A stretch of 64,000 nt of DNA from positions 62,001-126,000 of the forward strand of contig NZ_FOYS01000001.1 in the NCBI RefSeq assembly GCF_900115785.1, given 5' to 3'. Source of the stretch: Halogeometricum limi (GTDB lineage Archaea > Halobacteriota > Halobacteria > Halobacteriales > Haloferacaceae). Position numbers and translations under genes: made by a program. Below, in pieces: positions 39,186 to 64,000 of this stretch. Numbering within the stretch: position 1 is the stretch's first letter; the number at the start of each line of letters is the position of its first letter. The notes below the pieces were generated by a model, which was not told the DNA's origin, searched no databases, and was given only the letters and a program-made list of their open reading frames with translations.

Positions 39186-39317
39186 GGTCCGCAGAGAGCA
39201 AATAACTGCGCAGACAGGTCCGAAACGGAGACTGTCCGTAGCGCGTCGTGCACTCGGGCGAGACCCGTGACGGCGCGGTCCGACCATTTAAACCGGGTGA
39301 CGGCTTACTCCGGCGCA

Positions 39318-41738
39318 ATGAGACCGGAGGACGTGCCGGGCCTGCCGGAGGGGGTGCCCGAGCAGTTGCAGTCGGAGGGTATCGAGGAGTTGTACCCGCC
39401 GCAGGCCGAGGCAGTCGAGGCGGGGGTGACGGAGGGCGAGAGCGTCCTCGCCTCCATCCCCACCGCGTCGGGAAAGACGTTCGTCGCGGAGTTGGCGATG
39501 CTGTCGAGCGTCCAACGCGGCGGGAAGGCGCTGTACATCGTTCCGCTTCGCGCCCTCGCCTCCGAGAAAAAGGCCGAGTTCGAACGCTGGGAGGCGTTCG
39601 GTATCGACGTGGGCGTCTCGACGGGTAACTACGACTCCGACGGCGAGTGGTTGGCGTCGCGAGACATCATCGTCGCCACCTCCGAGAAGGTGGACTCGCT
39701 CATCCGAAACAACGCGCCGTGGGTGTCGGACCTCACCTGCGTCGTGAGCGACGAAGTCCACCTCGTGAACGACGCCCACCGCGGCCCGACGCTCGAAGTG
39801 ACACTCGGGAAGTTGCGGAAGATAAACCCCGGCCTGCAAGTCGTCGCCCTCTCGGCGACGGTTGGCAACGCCGACGAGGTGGCCGAGTGGTTGGACGCCA
39901 CGCTGGTCGAGTCCGACTGGCGACCCATCGACCTGAAGATGGGCGTCCACTACGGCAACGCCATCTCGTTCGACGACGGGACGCAAAGAGAGGTGCCGGT
40001 CGGAAAAGGAGACAGAAAGACGGCCGCACTCGTCGCCGACACCCTCGAAGAGGACGGGTCGTCGCTCGTGTTCGTCAACTCCCGCCGGAACGCCGAAGCG
40101 GCGGCGAAGCGGTTGAAAGACGTGACCGCGCGTGCACTGACCGAAGGAGAGAAAAGCGAACTCGCGGAACTCGCACAGGAGATTCGCGACGTGTCGGACA
40201 CGGAGACGAGCGACACTCTCGCGAACTGCGTGGCGAAGGGCGCGGCGTTTCACCACGCCGGACTCGCCGCCGAACACCGCAGTCTGGTCGAAGACGCGTT
40301 CCGCGACCGGTTGGTGAAGGCGGTGTCGGCGACGCCGACGCTCGCGGCGGGCGTGAACACGCCGAGCAGACGGGTCATCGTCCGCGACTGGCGACGCTAC
40401 GACGGCGAGTTCGGCGGCATGAAACCGCTGGACGTGCTCGAAGTCCACCAGATGATGGGCCGCGCCGGACGGCCCGGACTCGACCCCTACGGCGAAGCTG
40501 TGTTGCTGGCGAAAGACTCCGAGACGCGCGACGAACTGTTCGAGCGGTACATCTGGGCCGACGCCGAACCCGTGCGGTCGAAACTCGCGGCCGAACCCGC
40601 GCTCAGGACGCACTTGCTCGCCACCGTCGCCTCGGGGTTCGCTCACACCCGCGAGGGCGTCCTCGACTTCCTCGGCCAGACGCTGTACGCGACGCAGACG
40701 GACGAACCGGGACGACTCGAACGGGTCACGGACGCCGTCGTCCAGTACCTCGACGTGAACGGCTTCGTCGACGTCGAAGACGGACAGATAACGGCGACGC
40801 CCGTCGGCCACACCGTCTCGCGTCTCTACTTGGACCCGATGAGCGCCGCCGAGATACTCGACGGGTTGGAGTGGGCCGCCGACAACCGAGACGAGAACCT
40901 CCGCAAACTCGACGGCGTCGCGTCGGCTACGTCGGAACCACAGCAAACGGGCGAGTTCCAACGCGCCAGCGAGATGGTGAGCAACGACGAGGGAACGTAC
41001 GAGTCGGAGACGACGTACCCCACCGCGCTCGGCCTGTTCCACCTCGTCTCGCGCACGCCGGACATGTACCAACTCTACCTCAAGTCGGGCGACAGAGAGA
41101 CGTTCACCGAGGAGTGCTACGAACGCGAACCCGAACTGCTCGGGAAGGTCCCCTCCGAGTACGAGGACGTCCGCTTCGAGGAGTGGCTCTCCGCGCTCAA
41201 GACCGCCAGACTGCTCGAAGACTGGGCGGGCGAGGTGGACGAGGACCGCATCACCGAACGCTACGGCGTCGGCCCCGGCGACATCAGGGGGAAAGTCGAG
41301 ACGGCGCAGTGGTTGCTCGGCGCGGCCGAACGACTCGCGGGCGAGTTGGACCTCTCCTCCGTCGTCGCCGTCCGCGAGGCGAAAAAGCGCGTGGAGTACG
41401 GCGTCCGCGACGAACTCCTCGACTTGGCGGGCGTCCGCGGCGTCGGGCGAAAGCGCGCCCGCCGCCTGTTCGAGGCCGGAATCGAGACGCGGAGCGACCT
41501 CCGCGAGGCGGATAAATCCGTCGTCCTCGCCGCGTTACGAGGACGGCGCAAGACGGCCGAGAACGTCCTCGAAGCGGCCGGCAGACGCGACCCGTCGATG
41601 GACGACGTCGACGAGGCAGACGCCGACGTGCCGGCGGCGACGTTCGAACGGGCGAGCGGGCGGCAGAGCCACGGCGGAGACGGCGGTGACGACGGCGACG
41701 ACCCGCAGGAACAGGCGAGTCTGGGGGACTTCGGATGA
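39318..41738 (+). CDS. hel308: Hel308 DNA helicase
   Basis: Superfamily 2 (Ski2-like) 3'-5' helicase acting at stalled forks and in recombination control, 806 residues. It has the Q motif [17 protein letters not shown], Walker [16 protein letters not shown] (near residue 50), DEVH box [11 protein letters not shown], and motif [16 protein letters not shown]. Motif IV/V is [17 protein letters not shown] and [20 protein letters not shown], and motif VI is [19 protein letters not shown]. The winged-helix and ratchet domains follow, then the C-terminal HhH ([20 protein letters not shown]) and an acidic tail. It overlaps cgi121 by four bases. The ATG at 39318 gives the standard N-terminus; an upstream GTG is in frame but not needed. 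Confidence 0.97.
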
Positions 41739-42241
41739 GGTTCGTCGAGGGCGTCGCCGACGTCGCGGACGTGGGCGCGTTCGTCGAGCGAGTCGGCGAG
41801 ATAGCGACGGAGACGGCGACGACGGTGCAGGTGTTCGACGCGCGGTACGTCGTGAGCGAGGCGCACCTCCGACGGGCCGTCGCGTTCGCGGACAGGGCGT
41901 TCGAACGCGGCGAGAACGTCGCTCGCGACAGGGGCGTCGAGATACTGCTGTACGCCGCCGGACGCCGGCAGATAGACGACGCGCTGGCGATGGGCGTCGA
42001 AGAGGGAGAGACGCCCGTCGTGGTCCTCGTCGACGGCGGAGACGACGCGGACGACGCGGACGAATCGGCCGCCGAACGCCGAGTCTCCGCGTTGCTCGCC
42101 GAGGGGGAGACGCTCGGCCGCTACGACGAAGCGACCGTCCGGTCGTTCTTCGACGTCGGCGACGCCGAACTGGCGACGGTCGAGGGTGACCTCGAATCGC
42201 TCGTCTGCGAACGCGTCGCGCTGTTGAACGTCGAGAAGTAG
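41735..42241 (+). CDS. cgi121: KEOPS complex subunit Cgi121
   Basis: Small subunit of the KEOPS complex that makes threonylcarbamoyl-adenosine (t6A37) in tRNAs with Kae1, Bud32 and Pcc1. The 168-residue protein matches the family through [20 protein letters not shown] near the start and [20 protein letters not shown] in the middle, with a C-terminal helix block [15 protein letters not shown]. Cgi121 binds the tRNA 3' end. Its ATG overlaps the hel308 stop (ATGA), and this pairing is conserved in haloarchaea, so the two are coupled even though they act on different nucleic acids. Confidence 0.93.
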
Positions 42242-42249
42242 CCGCCGAA

Positions 42250-42318
42250 AACCCCTTCGTTTCGTGTGGAGATTCGAACCTGTGAGTAGCCGTCTAACCC
42301 CCTCGTTTCGGGTGGAGA
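42250..42318 (-). repeat. Pair of ORB-like repeats (possible Orc1/Cdc6 binding sites)
   Basis: Two 23-bp direct repeats, 21 of 23 bases identical, at 42250-42272 and 42296-42318 (period 46 bases). Both have the form AACCCC(T/C)TCGTTTCG ... GTGGAGA. Read on the other strand this is TCTCCAC-x2-GAAACGA followed by a run of G, the layout of the haloarchaeal origin recognition box with its G-string. They lie in the 194-base gap between cgi121 and the convergent histidine kinase, outside coding sequence. A third box differing by one base in 20 lies in the PolD small-subunit gene (61387-61406). The flanks are not strongly AT-rich, so an active origin is not shown. Confidence 0.6.
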
Positions 42319-42435
42319 ACAGTAGACTGCGCGGTGGTCCGGCGTCCAAACGAAATCGGGCGAACGAGTTCGGACCGAACTGGGGATTACCGAGTAACCG
42401 GGGAGGGAACTAAAACGATTCGAATCTCTCGACGG

Positions 42436-45336
42436 CTACGCCGGAATCGTGAAGAAGAACGTCGACCCCGCTCCCGGTTCGGATTCGGCCCAGATTCGAC
42501 CGCCGTGGCGTTCGACGATGCTCCGACAGACGGCGAGGCCGATGCCGGTGCCCTCGTACTCGGCGCTCGTGTGGAGTCGCTCGAATATCTGGAAGATGCC
42601 GTCCGTCCGGTCGGGGTCCATTCCGATTCCCTCGTCGCGGACGGAGAACACCCACTCGTCGTCTCGGCGGTCCGCGGCGACGTGGACCACGGGCGGGTCG
42701 TCGCCGCTGTAGCGGACGGCGTTGCTCACGAGGTTCTGGAGCAGCGTCAGTAACTGCGTCTCGTCGCCCCTGACGGTCGGAAGCGGGTCGGCGGTGACCG
42801 TCGCGTCGCTCTCTTCGATGGCCAGTTCGAGGTTCGACACCGTCCGGTCGAACACGAGGTCCATCTCGGTCGGTTCGAGCGGGTTCCCCTGCGTGTCGAC
42901 GCGCGAGTAGGTCAGGAGGCCGTCTATCATCTCCCGCATCCGGTCCGCGCCGTCGACGGCGTAGTCGACGAACTCCCGCGCGTCCTCGTCGAGTTCGTCC
43001 CCGTATCGGCGTTCGAGCAACTGAACGTAACTCGACACCATCCGCAACGGTTCGGTGAGGTCGTGCGAGGCGACGTAGGCGAACCGTTCGAGGCGGTCGT
43101 TCGAGCGTTCGAGTTTCTCGACGGTCGCTTCTATCTCCGCCTGCGCGCGTCGGCGTTCGAGGCCGTACCCGACCCACTCTGTCATCAGTTCGGCGAACGT
43201 CTGCTCCGCGTCCGTGAACGGGTCGTCTCTGGGCGTCGTATCTGCGAAGCAGAACGTCCCGAACGTCTCGCCGTCGACGACCACCTCCGACCCGAGATAG
43301 CAGGAGAGACCGCTTCCGTAGGCGGGGTCGTCCGCGAACCCCTCGGCGACGGCGTCGCGAATCGAAAAACCGCTCGGCGACCCGACCACGTGCTTGCAGT
43401 ACGTGTCCCTGAGCGGTGCCGAGAGTCCCTCGTGGAACTTCTCGTGCGTGCCGTACATTGCGGCGACGTTGAACGCGTCCGCCTCCTCGTCCACCTCGAT
43501 GAGAAAGCCGTAGTCGACGCCCAGTCGGTCGCATCCGAGTTGGAGGAACCGGTCGACTTTCTTCTCGAACGTCGACCCCGTGTCCGACGCGATTTCGTAC
43601 AGTTCGCGGAGGTAGAACTGGCTCTCTTCGAGTTCTCGCTCGGCGCGCTTTCGCTTCGTGATGTCCGAGAGCGCGCCCGTAAAGCGGACCGCCTCGCCGT
43701 CCTCGAACTCGACTTCCCCGCGGGCGAGCACCCAGCGAACCGTCTCGTCGGCCGAGACGACGCGGTACTCGTGCTCGAAGGAGCCACCCGACGCCAGCGT
43801 GGCGTCTATCTCCCGCTTCGTCTCCCGCCGGTCGTCGGGGTGTATCGACGAGAGGAACGTCTCAAGCGGCATCCCCTCGCGAGCGTCCGCCGGGTCGAGT
43901 CCGAACAGGTCGGCGAGCGCCGCGTCCGCGAGCACTTCGTCCTCGGTGACGTTCCAGTCCCACGTCCCGACCGAACCGACGGTCATCGCCACCTCCAGGC
44001 GCTCTTTCGTCTCCTGTAACTCCCGTTCGCGCCGTCGACGGTCGGTGACGTCGGTGAGCGCGCCGTTCATCCGAAGCGCCTCGCCGTCCTCGTCGTACTC
44101 GACCTCGCCGCGAGACGACACCCACGAGACGTCGCCGCTCCCGTCTCGAACCCGGTACTCGGCCGCGAACTCGCCCGTCTCTTCGACCGCTTCGTCGAGG
44201 CTTCGCCACACCTCCTCGCGGTCCGCCTCGTGTACCGGTTCGAAGAACTCCTCGATGTGCGCACCCGAAACCGTCGTCTCGGGGTCCATCCCGTACGCCG
44301 CCGCGAGCGACTGGTCCGCGGTCACGACGTCCGTGTCGAACTCCCACGTCCACGTCCCGAGCGACCCGGCCTCTGTCGCGACTTCGAGTCGCTCTTTCGT
44401 CTCCCGTAACTCGCGTTCCTGTCGCTTCCGTTCGGAGACGTCGTAGTAGAGTTCCAGACGGCCGCCGGCGTACTCGCCGGACTCGATCGGTTGACTGCGG
44501 TACTGGAGGTACCGTTCGGGACGGTTCTCGCTCGACGTGACGTGAATCTCGAACTCCTCGGCCGGGTCGTCCGTTCGGTACACGTCGGCGAGTCCACCCG
44601 CGAGTCCGTCCGCGTCGACCACGCGCGCTTCGAGGCGGTCCGTCACGAGTTCCGCCATCTCCCACCCCTCCGGAACGGTTTCGTCGAGTCCGAAGTACGT
44701 CTCGACCGTCCGGTTCGCCCACGCCACGTCGCCGGCGTCGTCGAGGACGAAGACGCCGACGTCGGACTCGCCGAACACGTCCTCGGCGAGCGACCGGTAG
44801 CGCTCGACCGAGGGTTCGCGTCCGGAGTCCCCCTCCTCAGCGAGTTCGTCGGCCGTGGGGACGTCCCCGGCGACGGCCGAGAGGATGCGACGCGCGAGGA
44901 GTTCGACGCCGTCTCCCGGCGGTCGGTGAACGTAGTCGGTCACGCCGGCCGAAAGCGCCTCCGCGGGGAGTCCCGAGACGGCGTCCGCCGAGACGAGAAC
45001 CGACGGAATCGTCCGGGAGTCGTCGACGACGCGGGAGAGGACGGCCACGCCGTCGTTGCCGTCGTCGTCGCTGTCGTCGTGGCTGTCGTCACTGTCGAGT
45101 CGGTACTCGCTGACGACGCAGTCGACGTTCGCACCGTCGTCGAGTTCGTCGAGTACGTCCGCCGCGTTCGTCGTCGACACCGTAAACCGGGAGTCTGCTC
45201 GGAGCGCCGTCGTCGCGTCGGTGTCGTCGCCGTCGGCGGTGACGAACAGGACGCGAGTCGTGTCGCGTTCCCGTCTCTGTCGGGCGGACCGGTTCGCCCG
45301 GTCCGGCGTCCGCGCCGCGTCCCGTTCGCGAGTCAT
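42436..45336 (-). CDS. Multi-PAS/GAF sensor histidine kinase
   Basis: Cytoplasmic sensor kinase of 966 residues. An Arg-rich lead is followed by a receiver-like domain (TRVLFVTADGDDTDATTALR) in which the phosphoacceptor position is Glu (CVVSEYRL) and an acidic DSDDSHDDSDDDGNDG insert follows. Three or four PAS/PAC domains come next (e.g. VFVLDDAGDVAWANRTVETY), then a GAF domain (about residues 560-715). The kinase core has the phospho-His in FAYVASHDLTEPLRMVSSYV, N box NLVSNAVRYSGD, G1 DEGIGMDPD and G2 GTGIGLAVCRSIVERHGG. No membrane segment is seen. The start ATG at 45336 is preferred to upstream in-frame ATGs, which would add an Arg-rich non-conserved lead. The divergent receiver gene at 45509 is the likely partner. 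Confidence 0.92.
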   Translation of the reverse strand: MTRERDAARTPDRANRSARQRRERDTTRVLFVTADGDDTDATTALRADSRFTVSTTNAADVLDELDDGANVDCVVSEYRLDSDDSHDDSDDDGNDGVAVLSRVVDDSRTIPSVLVSADAVSGLPAEALSAGVTDYVHRPPGDGVELLARRILSAVAGDVPTADELAEEGDSGREPSVERYRSLAEDVFGESDVGVFVLDDAGDVAWANRTVETYFGLDETVPEGWEMAELVTDRLEARVVDADGLAGGLADVYRTDDPAEEFEIHVTSSENRPERYLQYRSQPIESGEYAGGRLELYYDVSERKRQERELRETKERLEVATEAGSLGTWTWEFDTDVVTADQSLAAAYGMDPETTVSGAHIEEFFEPVHEADREEVWRSLDEAVEETGEFAAEYRVRDGSGDVSWVSSRGEVEYDEDGEALRMNGALTDVTDRRRRERELQETKERLEVAMTVGSVGTWDWNVTEDEVLADAALADLFGLDPADAREGMPLETFLSSIHPDDRRETKREIDATLASGGSFEHEYRVVSADETVRWVLARGEVEFEDGEAVRFTGALSDITKRKRAERELEESQFYLRELYEIASDTGSTFEKKVDRFLQLGCDRLGVDYGFLIEVDEEADAFNVAAMYGTHEKFHEGLSAPLRDTYCKHVVGSPSGFSIRDAVAEGFADDPAYGSGLSCYLGSEVVVDGETFGTFCFADTTPRDDPFTDAEQTFAELMTEWVGYGLERRRAQAEIEATVEKLERSNDRLERFAYVASHDLTEPLRMVSSYVQLLERRYGDELDEDAREFVDYAVDGADRMREMIDGLLTYSRVDTQGNPLEPTEMDLVFDRTVSNLELAIEESDATVTADPLPTVRGDETQLLTLLQNLVSNAVRYSGDDPPVVHVAADRRDDEWVFSVRDEGIGMDPDRTDGIFQIFERLHTSAEYEGTGIGLAVCRSIVERHGGRIWAESEPGAGSTFFFTIPA

Positions 45337-45508
45337 AGGTGTACGCGTCGCCCGAGGCTGAAAATCTCTGCGGCGAGCGTCGCGTCCGTCTCCGAGAACG
45401 GTTCCCGTGATTCTCCGTCCCGAGCGGCGACAGATACTTTTCCACCCGTCGGTCATAGCCGGTCATGCATCTGCCAGCGCCGACGAGTGCGGCCGTTCGG
45501 AGCGAAGG

Positions 45509-60151: not shown

Positions 60152-61774
60152 TCAGGCGAACTTCCGAACGGTCATGTCGAGGGTGTCGAGGTCCACGATG
60201 GGCGCGTAGCCCGAGTCGGGGTCGATGTTGACGGACTTCTGGAAGTCGGTCTGCGACTGCCAACAGCCGGAGTTGACCGCGAGGACGTTGTGGTACTTGC
60301 CCCAGCCGAGTTTGTGGACGTGGCCGGTGTGAAAGATGTCCGGCACCTCCTCCATCACGAGGTAGTCTTTCTCTTCGGGTGCGAGGCGAGTGTGGCCGCC
60401 GTACTGCGGCGCGACGTGGCGCTTCTTCAGGAGTTGGTACATCGCCTTGTGCGGTTCGTCGTAACTCGCCGACTCCGCGGGGAGTTCCGCGATGACTTCG
60501 TCCAAGGAGACGCCGTGGTACATGAGCACCTTCACGCCTTCGAGCGTCACCATCGAGGGGTTGCTCACGATGCGGGCGTCGTGGACGTCCATGATGTCGC
60601 GGAGTCGGTCGTCGAACCCGGGTTGCGGTTCCGCGAGTCGGACCGCGTCGTGGTTGCCCGGTATCATCACAATCTCGATGTCGCCGGGCACCTCCTTCAG
60701 GTGCTCTGCGAACTGCTCGTACTGGTCGTAGATGTCGACGATATCCAACTCCTCGTCCTGATTCGGGTAGACGCCGACGCCCTCCACCATGTCGCCCGCG
60801 ACGAGGAGATACTCCACGCGTTCGGCCTCCTGCGTGTGAAGCCAGTCGGTGAAGCGATGCCACGCCTCGGCCATGAACTCCTGACTCCCGACGTGGACGT
60901 CGGAGATGAGTGCGGCCTGCACGTCTCTGTCGGCGGTGTTCGGTTTGTACGTCCGGGGCACGTCCGGCGAGTACATCGAGTCGACGAACATGATTCCGGC
61001 GTCACCCGAGAGCGTCCCCTCAACGGCGATGCACTCGTCCATCAGGAGTTCGTCGACGGCGGAGGCGAACTCGCGGTCTTTCATCACGAGACAGGGAAAC
61101 GTGCCCGTCGTGTCCTCCAACTCGACCAACCAGTGACCGCTGGCGGTCGACCGGATGTCGTTCACGAGGCCGACCATCGCGGCGTCGCTGCCGCCCGACA
61201 TCGACTGAATCGCCTCGGCGGGACGGTGGTTCACCCGCCCGCGGAGTTGCCGAGAGAGCTTCTCGTATCGGTCTTTGAACACCTTCACGAAGTCGCCGTA
61301 CTCGCCGGTACCGGTGCTCTGTCCGGTCATATCGTTCTCTATCTCGAGCGAACGGAGCGAGCGGTCGGGATTTCGACCGTTCCAGGACCCCCCCGTTTCG
61401 GGTGGACCGGTCGTCTCGGTGGCGGTGGTCGTGTCAGCCGAAGTTGCAGTCGAAGTCGAGGGGTTCGACGTTCGCGACGCGGAGGCGTTCGACGCTTGCG
61501 ACGCAGAGGCGTTCGAGGCCTGCGTGGCCGATTCGGCGTCCGTCGGCGTCGGGTCGGAGACGGCGGCGTCGGTGGCGTTGGCGTCCGCGTCGAGGACGGC
61601 CCGCACGTCGGCGGCGGTGACGCGGAACGCGTCAGGTCCGGCGTGTTCGACCGCACGCGCGAGCGTCGTACCGGGGTCCGCCGCACCGGCGATGAGCGTC
61701 ACGGCCTCTCGTTCGGCGTTGTAGCCGTGGCGCGCGAGTTCGCGGACGATTCGGGCGGGCGTCTCCAGAGGCAC
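60152..61774 (-). CDS. polD1: DNA polymerase D (family D), small subunit DP1
   Basis: Exonuclease subunit of the archaeal replicative polymerase PolD, 540 residues. GTG start. Residues about 75-135 form a disordered Ala/Ser/Thr linker that includes three imperfect octapeptide units (QASNASAS type). The OB fold lies near residues 190-260 (GLVNDIRSTASGHWLVELED), then the calcineurin-like exonuclease with AALISDVHVGSQEFMAEAW, LVAGDMVEGVGV, VMIPGNHDAVRLAEP, and the C-terminal FHTGHVHKLGWGKY. All metal ligands are visible, so the 3'-5' exonuclease should be active. An ORB-like box lies inside its linker-coding DNA. The arrangement with sec11 and orc1 matches the oriC1 side of Haloferax. Confidence 0.95.
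   Translation of the reverse strand: MPLETPARIVRELARHGYNAEREAVTLIAGAADPGTTLARAVEHAGPDAFRVTAADVRAVLDADANATDAAVSDPTPTDAESATQASNASASQASNASASRTSNPSTSTATSADTTTATETTGPPETGGSWNGRNPDRSLRSLEIENDMTGQSTGTGEYGDFVKVFKDRYEKLSRQLRGRVNHRPAEAIQSMSGGSDAAMVGLVNDIRSTASGHWLVELEDTTGTFPCLVMKDREFASAVDELLMDECIAVEGTLSGDAGIMFVDSMYSPDVPRTYKPNTADRDVQAALISDVHVGSQEFMAEAWHRFTDWLHTQEAERVEYLLVAGDMVEGVGVYPNQDEELDIVDIYDQYEQFAEHLKEVPGDIEIVMIPGNHDAVRLAEPQPGFDDRLRDIMDVHDARIVSNPSMVTLEGVKVLMYHGVSLDEVIAELPAESASYDEPHKAMYQLLKKRHVAPQYGGHTRLAPEEKDYLVMEEVPDIFHTGHVHKLGWGKYHNVLAVNSGCWQSQTDFQKSVNIDPDSGYAPIVDLDTLDMTVRKFA
61387..61406 (-). promoter_or_regulatory. ORB-like box inside the PolD small-subunit gene
   Basis: The rightward strand reads ACCCCCCCGTTTCGGGTGGA; on the other strand TCCACCCGAAACGGGGGGGT. 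It differs by one base in 20 from the box at 42297-42316 and has the haloarchaeal ORB layout (TCCAC, GAAAC, then a G-string). It is in coding sequence for the residues GPPETGGSW, so selection on the protein is an alternative reason for the sequence. Confidence 0.5.
61474..61545. repeat. 24-base tandem repeats in the PolD small-subunit linker
   Basis: Two near-identical 24-base units (61474-61497 and 61498-61521), with a weaker third copy on the left, encode ASNASASQ-type octapeptides. They expand a disordered linker between the N-terminal domain and the OB fold. Confidence 0.55.
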
Positions 61775-62751: not shown

Positions 62752-64000
62752 TCAGTTGTCGAACCGCGCTTGGACGAACGGTTGCGCGTTCTCGATGTCG
62801 CCGAGACGCGAGTCCGACAGGAGAACGGCTTCCGTCTCGTCGATAGGGACCGAGAGCGAGATTTCTTTCGTGCGGCCGTACCGGCCCTTCGAGACGACGA
62901 CGGCGTTGACGATACCGAGCATGTCGAGTTCGGAGATGAGGTCCGTCACGCGCCGTTGAGTGAGGATGTCGGCGTCGATCTCCTCGCAGAGGCGTTTGTA
63001 GATGTTGAACACCTCGCCGGTGTTGATGTTGCGGACGCCGTTCTTCTCCAAGAGGATGATGGCGAAGAGGACGATTTTCGACTGCGTCGGGAGGGTGCGG
63101 ACGACTTCGACGACCCGGTCTAACTCTATCTTGTCCTGCGCCTGCCGGACGTGCGCTTCCTCGACGGTGTCGGCCTGCCCGCGTTCGGCGAGTTCGCCCG
63201 CCGTCCTGAGGAGGTCGAGTGCGCGCCGGGCGTCTCCGTGCTCCTGCGCGGCGAAGGCGGCGCAGAGCGGAATCACGTCGTCGGTGAGTGCGCCGCCTTT
63301 GAACGCGACGTCCGCGCGGTGTTGGAGGATGTCGCGCAACTGGTTCGCGTCGTACGGCGGGAACACGATCTCCTCCTCACCGAGACTCGACTTCACGCGC
63401 GGGTCGAGAAAGTCGGTGAACTTCAGGTCGTTCGAGATACCCATGATGGAGATGCGCGAGTTGCTCAGCTCCGAGTTCATCCGTGAGAGGTTGTACAGCG
63501 TGTCGTCGCCGGATTTCTCGACGAGTTTGTCTATCTCGTCGAGCATGATGACGACGACGCGTTCGTTGTAGTCGACGGCGTCGAAGAAGGTCGAATAGAC
63601 GCGGTCGGTCGGCCACCCCGTCATCGGTACCGTCTCCATCTCCTCTCTGTCCGTCTCCAACTGCTCGATTCGTTCCTCGACGGCCTCGACGCTGTCGAAG
63701 GAGGTGTCTTCTAACGGGGCCGGGGACTCTCCGACGCGCGTTCGGAGGTCTTCGAGTCGGTCGAGTCGGTTCTCGATGATATCGAAGTTCTTCTCGATGA
63801 ACTTGTTCGCGAGTTGCGCGAGGACGCGGTACTGGGTGTCCGTCACCTCGCAGTTGATGTACTCGACCTCGCAGGGGACGTCGTACTTCTGGGACGTCGA
63901 CTCCAGTTCCTGACTGACGAACTTCGCACTCGCGGTCTTTCCTGTCCCCGTCTTCCCGTAGATGAGGATGTTCGAGGGCGTCTCCCCGCGGAGTGCGGAG
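62752..64000 (-). CDS. orc1: Orc1/Cdc6 replication initiator, 5' end beyond the window
   Basis: AAA+ origin-binding protein; 416 C-terminal residues are present. Visible are Walker A NILIYGKTGTGKTASAKFVS at the right edge, Walker B VVVIMLDEIDKLV, sensor 1 ISIMGISNDLKFTDFLDPRV, and sensor 2 HGDARRALDLLRTAGELAER. The C-terminal winged helix follows, with LDRVVEVVRTLPTQSKIVLF and LTQRRVTDLISELDMLGIVN, which binds ORB sequences. The window cuts the first residues and the promoter. Its position beside sec11 and polD1 indicates the oriC1-associated Orc1, whose origin repeats should lie just outside the window. No other orc gene is seen here. Confidence 0.95.
   Translation of the reverse strand, partial: SALRGETPSNILIYGKTGTGKTASAKFVSQELESTSQKYDVPCEVEYINCEVTDTQYRVLAQLANKFIEKNFDIIENRLDRLEDLRTRVGESPAPLEDTSFDSVEAVEERIEQLETDREEMETVPMTGWPTDRVYSTFFDAVDYNERVVVIMLDEIDKLVEKSGDDTLYNLSRMNSELSNSRISIMGISNDLKFTDFLDPRVKSSLGEEEIVFPPYDANQLRDILQHRADVAFKGGALTDDVIPLCAAFAAQEHGDARRALDLLRTAGELAERGQADTVEEAHVRQAQDKIELDRVVEVVRTLPTQSKIVLFAIILLEKNGVRNINTGEVFNIYKRLCEEIDADILTQRRVTDLISELDMLGIVNAVVVSKGRYGRTKEISLSVPIDETEAVLLSDSRLGDIENAQPFVQARFDN

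Follow-up and report, generated by a model that had tools for sequence, protein, structure and literature searches.

Why should two repeats with the layout of origin recognition boxes (ORBs) lie about 20.5 kb from the nearest orc gene? The repeats in question, A1 (42250-42272; TCTCCACACGAAACGAAGGGGTT) and A2 (42296-42318; TCTCCACCCGAAACGAGGGGGTT), are 23-bp direct repeats on the minus strand of a 64,000-nucleotide stretch of Halogeometricum limi DNA, hereafter the window (C8:62001-126000; the 3.6 Mb genome is in 8 contigs). They agree at 21 of 23 positions with a period of 46 bp, exactly as the original prediction had described them, and occupy the convergent gap between cgi121, which encodes a KEOPS subunit (41735-42241, plus strand; PF08617, E 2e-13) and past whose stop codon they run antisense, and a PAS/GAF histidine kinase gene (42436-45456, minus strand). 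Upstream of cgi121 is an archaeal helicase gene (39267-41738, plus strand; PF21280 and PF00270), which we take to encode Hel308. GC content in the pair region is about 54-61% with no AT-rich stretch, in keeping with the earlier remark that its AT-richness is too weak for an unwinding element.

The nearest orc gene is orc1, the gene for the oriC1 initiator, which runs on the minus strand from window position 62752 to beyond 64000 and past the window end (C8:124755-126494). Its origin, which had been guessed to lie beyond 64 kb, was found at C8:126993-127208, where inverted ORBs (GTTCCACCCGAAACGAAGGGGTGGGGG) flank an AT-rich stretch; this corresponds to 64993-65208 in window numbering, beyond the window end and at a distance of 22.7 kb from the pair. 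Another ORB (TTTCCAGTCGAAACGAGGGGG; TCCAGTCGAAAC type) is located just before the orc1 start codon and likewise outside the window, at C8:126503-126523 on the minus strand (L012:6503-6523). Counterparts were observed near orc1 in four other genomes (G003, G033, G010 and G058), and this box may be a site of orc1 autoregulation.

The repeats carry the oriC1 core, which is confined to the oriC1 region

When the pattern TCTCCACNNGAAACGANGGGG was searched with up to 3 mismatches, the window gave 3 matches against 0.12 expected from shuffles, and no shuffle reached 3; comparison with shuffled sequence, which had been proposed as a way to refute the assignment, therefore left it standing. Both members of the pair are exact matches, and the third is a 3-mismatch copy at 61388-61408. 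Across the whole genome, TCTCCACNNGAAACGA has exactly 4 exact matches, all within C8:104257-144028, namely A1, A2 and two further satellite sites, B (C8:134843-134858, minus strand) and C (C8:144013-144028, plus strand). The core TCCACNNGAAACNNNGGGG has exactly 7 exact matches, all within 40 kb around oriC1: A1, A2, B, C, the two boxes of oriC1 and a copy inside the gene for the PolD small subunit. The reversed core has none. Both repeats contain the exact core of the ORBs of the cognate origin, and the confinement of this core to 40 kb indicates that it marks the oriC1 region and is no general intergenic or 3'-end element.

This behaviour extends well beyond H. limi. The TCCACNNGAAACNNNGGGG pattern is present in 118 of 119 Haloferacaceae genomes, with no match to the reversed control in any of the 119 and a single one among 69 genomes of the order. 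In an evenly drawn sample of the family, 52 genomes had a recognised inverted core pair; among the matches listed for these, 98 of the 114 further exact ORBs that share a contig with oriC1 fall within 50 kb of it, as do 36 of 42 among those listed for 23 genomes of other haloarchaeal families. Short contigs bias these counts upwards, but chromosomes on a single long contig cluster likewise. For the TCCAG variant, TCCAGNNGAAACNNNGGGG, the count is 66 of 79 within 50 kb, and its reversed control found nothing in 39 genomes. Genome-wide specificity, shuffles and reversed controls together rule out a chance repeat.

The match within the PolD small-subunit gene lies in the coding sequence for the linker of this subunit, DP1 (window 61388-61406, minus strand; TCCACNNGAAACNNNGGGG). 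Boxes of ORB type were also observed in the DP1 linker at seven other loci (L135, L140, L143, L168, L177, L190 and L204), and one or more occur in 13 of the 23 DP1 genes read. An inverted pair at exactly 57 bp, encoding DPSVSxG...PVETEGS, is present in DP1 of Natronomonas, Halegenticoccus tardaugens, strain XH8 and metagenome-assembled genomes. The codons GTT and GAA used in the DP1 boxes are non-preferred, hinting at selection at the DNA level.

The box behind cgi121 is conserved in position and strand

Using a score of at least 13 of 15.3 to call a box (shuffled sequence reached 12.8 at most), we found an ORB-type box no more than about 125 bp beyond the stop codon of cgi121 in 38 of 61 Haloferacaceae genomes, antisense in 38 of 38; three of the 38 score exactly at the threshold. 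The genera concerned include Haloferax, Halogranum, Halobellus, Halegenticoccus, Halobium and Halobonum, and a box at the same spot was absent from all named loci outside Haloferacaceae. The tandem arrangement, with a period of 46-47 bp, is limited to Halogeometricum (5 of 5 genomes) and its sister genus g7 (2 of 2), other genera having a single box. The pair is found in all close relatives, whose uniform lack of it had been named as grounds for abandoning the prediction. In an alignment of the gap from the seven genomes, mean pairwise identity is 92% for A1 and 87% for A2, where the relatives have the TCCAGT variant, against 42% for the 23-bp spacer (42273-42295) and 82% for the last 60 bases of cgi121.

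The gene on the far side of the gap does not share this conservation. Searches with tblastn over about 1.5 kb on each side did not find the kinase in the corresponding position in three further Halogeometricum and two g7 genomes, and the kinase is therefore not linked to the ORBs. Elsewhere, too, the neighbours downstream of the cgi121 box vary, as judged from open reading frames (ORFs) chosen by length and acidity only. A separate conserved block, ACTAAAACGATTCGAATC, was noticed past the pair at about 42410-42427; it is present in 6 of 7 gaps from Halogeometricum and g7, even though the kinase is not shared.

Presence of the box also goes with proximity to orc1. The median distance from cgi121 to orc1 is 18 kb with a box and 64 kb without one (Mann-Whitney p = 2e-4, 35 vs 19), a result we take as supportive only, since related genomes are not independent and the p value is uncorrected for shared ancestry. 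There are exceptions in both directions: genus g21 keeps the box with cgi121 178-205 kb from orc1, and a few genomes have cgi121 close to orc1 yet no box. Three g4 genomes have no box within 350 bp of the cgi121 stop.

Sites A, B and C are all syntenic in 7 of 7 genomes. Site B lies next to where an ABC permease gene ends, and it has a methyltransferase gene on its other side in the four genomes for which sufficient sequence was read or in which this gene occurs; site C lies between an ORF without a Pfam match and uvrB. Two variants were observed outside Halogeometricum and g7. In three species of Haladaptatus (L144, L163 and L167) the distance from cgi121 to a downstream box is about 450-490 bp; this box is on the strand opposite to that of the Haloferacaceae box and about 5-6 kb from an oriC1-like cluster. 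All Haloferax loci read (L145, L155, L160, L161, L166, L172, L173, L178 and L183) have a second box, on the plus strand, about 3.4-4 kb before the cgi121 stop.

The ORB-like layout originally proposed is borne out by the match to the oriC1 core, by genome-wide specificity and by deep syntenic conservation, and on these sequence comparisons we regard the ORB identity of the pair as well supported.

Satellite boxes lack the extended G-string of origin boxes

An extended G-string of the GGGGTGGGG type accompanies 75 of 82 ORBs in the oriC1 region and 0 of 40 cgi121-linked boxes (Fisher p = 2e-25, with related genomes not independent). In a plasmid carrying the Haloarcula hispanica oriC1, altering either G-string abolished function, and the extended G-string is essential (PMC3936714). 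The cgi121 satellites lack this halophile-specific element of oriC1-type ORBs; the pair, moreover, consists of direct repeats 46 bp apart, not of inverted ORBs around an AT-rich unwinding element, and has no orc/cdc6 gene directly adjacent.

Sites that many genera keep in place but that lack the part required for starting replication probably serve to retain or count Orc1 and do not act as origins. We put at about an even chance the reading that the pair is one of several non-initiating candidate Orc1 sites near oriC1 that titrate or hold Orc1. Under this proposal, boxes at fixed spots no more than tens of kilobases from oriC1 would each probably bind one Orc1 monomer through the core common to the oriC1 boxes; in Sulfolobus, one Orc1 monomer binds per ORB with a defined polarity (PMC12141716). 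Because the satellites have neither the extended G-string nor an inverted partner across an unwinding element, productive loading of MCM is not expected there, and they would bind Orc1 yet be unable to fire. Lying near oriC1, they would be copied soon after initiation, and such early duplication would withdraw or hold Orc1 at the time when re-initiation must be restrained. The whole set would then constitute a dispersed initiator-titration system. The near-origin position, multiplicity, conservation and missing G-string of the boxes all fit a restraint of re-initiation by titration of the initiator.

The steps of this proposal differ in strength: binding of Orc1 by the satellites is predicted from the shared core, and titration as the purpose, as against maintaining a particular architecture around the origin, is the most inferential step. 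Initiator boxes do occur outside the origin, but with 1-2 boxes per dispersed site they do not form the dense single-region cluster of a titration locus. Each genome has only a handful of satellites, a small number for a pure titration role unless the supply of Orc1 is low. A strict titration argument is also weakened by the polyploidy of haloarchaea and by the several origins that they often have. That synteny and strand are fixed suggests that location counts for more than it would in a simple sink, and g21 keeps its cgi121 ORB at great distance from orc1. Of the three functions originally offered, the dormant or minor origin is contradicted and the promoter disfavoured, for the reasons given below, and titration or another non-initiating role in holding Orc1 is the leading reading.

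Alternative roles for the satellite boxes

The strongest competitor, unlikely in our estimate though given about half the weight of titration, is that the boxes are architectural or centromere-like sites, at which Orc1 on fixed boxes bridges them by handcuffing or looping, or recruits segregation or condensation factors, in the manner of the scattered parS sites that mark bacterial origins. A structural or segregation role would account for the fixed positions at least equally well: the sites around oriC1 are few, single or paired, and conserved in strand and position, the cgi121 site is mostly missing where cgi121 is far from oriC1, and the clustering is also seen in other families. However, no partner protein or spreading mechanism is known here, no Orc1-based bridging was found in the literature searched, and the conservation of position could merely follow conserved gene order.

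A gene-regulatory or 3'-end element, with Orc1 or another protein past cgi121 ending or blocking hel308-cgi121 or antisense transcription, is improbable. The invariably antisense box close behind cgi121 in the 38 genomes would suit such a role, and the ORB before the orc1 start codon may regulate orc1. Against it, the motif is restricted to the oriC1 region, which rules out a general 3'-end or terminator motif, the remaining satellites adjoin unrelated genes, and genomes with cgi121 far from oriC1 are mostly without the box. The promoter controlled by Orc1 that had been suggested earlier is disfavoured because the gap is convergent, upstream of neither neighbour, and the gene downstream differs from genome to genome where the ORB is retained; a promoter of the kinase, absent there in relatives, is ruled out on the same grounds.

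Less probable still is a dormant or minor replication origin, the remaining earlier suggestion. The pair does comprise two ORBs of oriC1 type, and dormant origins exist in Haloferax mediterranei, but these have inverted ORBs beside orc/cdc6 genes (PMC4595724). Direct repeats across a 23-bp spacer, the absence of an AT-rich stretch, of an adjacent orc gene and of any extended G-string, and the retention of a single box in most genera contradict an origin here, and we reject it on this anatomy. Least probable of all are relics, ancestral ORBs near oriC1 persisting by shared descent without present function. Losses in several genera, such as the three g4 genomes, speak for relics; against them, the boxes are better conserved than the spacer between them or the end of cgi121 and have persisted in many genera, with losses only here and there.

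Comparison with known systems

More broadly, we consider it slightly more probable than its opposite that haloarchaea, Haloferacaceae above all, possess a dispersed, syntenic network of initiation-incompetent candidate Orc1 boxes that would control initiation or mark the origin region. As proposed from these genome comparisons, its sites would lie after cgi121, beside the methyltransferase gene, before uvrB and, in some genomes, within the PolD small-subunit gene; the network would be to archaea what DnaA-box clusters or parS sites are to bacteria, with the missing G-string separating its boxes from those of true origins. The candidate regulatory sites collected here share a sequence mark, presence of the core and absence of the G-string, that distinguishes them from origin boxes, and they caution that an ORB match is not enough to predict an origin. 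Satellites occur in Haloferax, a genus in which genes are routinely deleted and marker frequencies routinely analysed.

The satellites share an identical TCCACNNGAAACNNNGGGG core with the ORBs of haloarchaeal oriC1. The latter form an inverted pair with an extended G-string, whereas satellites are direct or single, without GGGGTGGGGG, an unwinding element or an adjacent orc gene. In Escherichia coli, datA is a single cluster of DnaA boxes that acts together with IHF and stimulates DnaA to hydrolyse ATP. Both datA and the pair are loci outside the origin with boxes for the initiator; datA limits initiation, for which the pair is a candidate, but IHF and DnaA ATP hydrolysis are features of datA, and none was seen at the pair.

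Bacillus subtilis has oriC-proximal DnaA-box clusters, for which deletion of six showed function (Okumura 2012, as described in PMC5295017). According to that description, several initiator-box sites outside the origin there jointly restrain initiation; those are clustered bacterial DnaA boxes, whereas here archaeal ORBs stand singly or in pairs and the role is a candidate one. The nearest precedent, and the only report of ORBs dispersed, or of Orc1 bound, outside haloarchaeal origins that we found in the open-access literature, where others may exist, is oriC2D of H. hispanica, an ORB-rich non-origin region that restrains oriC2, probably by titration of Cdc6E (PMC3936714). Like the satellites, it comprises haloarchaeal ORBs outside an origin that are proposed to titrate an initiator and restrain the origin. 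It differs in having 11 ORBs in one 722-bp gap directly downstream of cdc6E, acting on oriC2, whereas the boxes described here are of the oriC1/Orc1 type and are spread, 1-2 per site, over several sites about 8-23 kb away.
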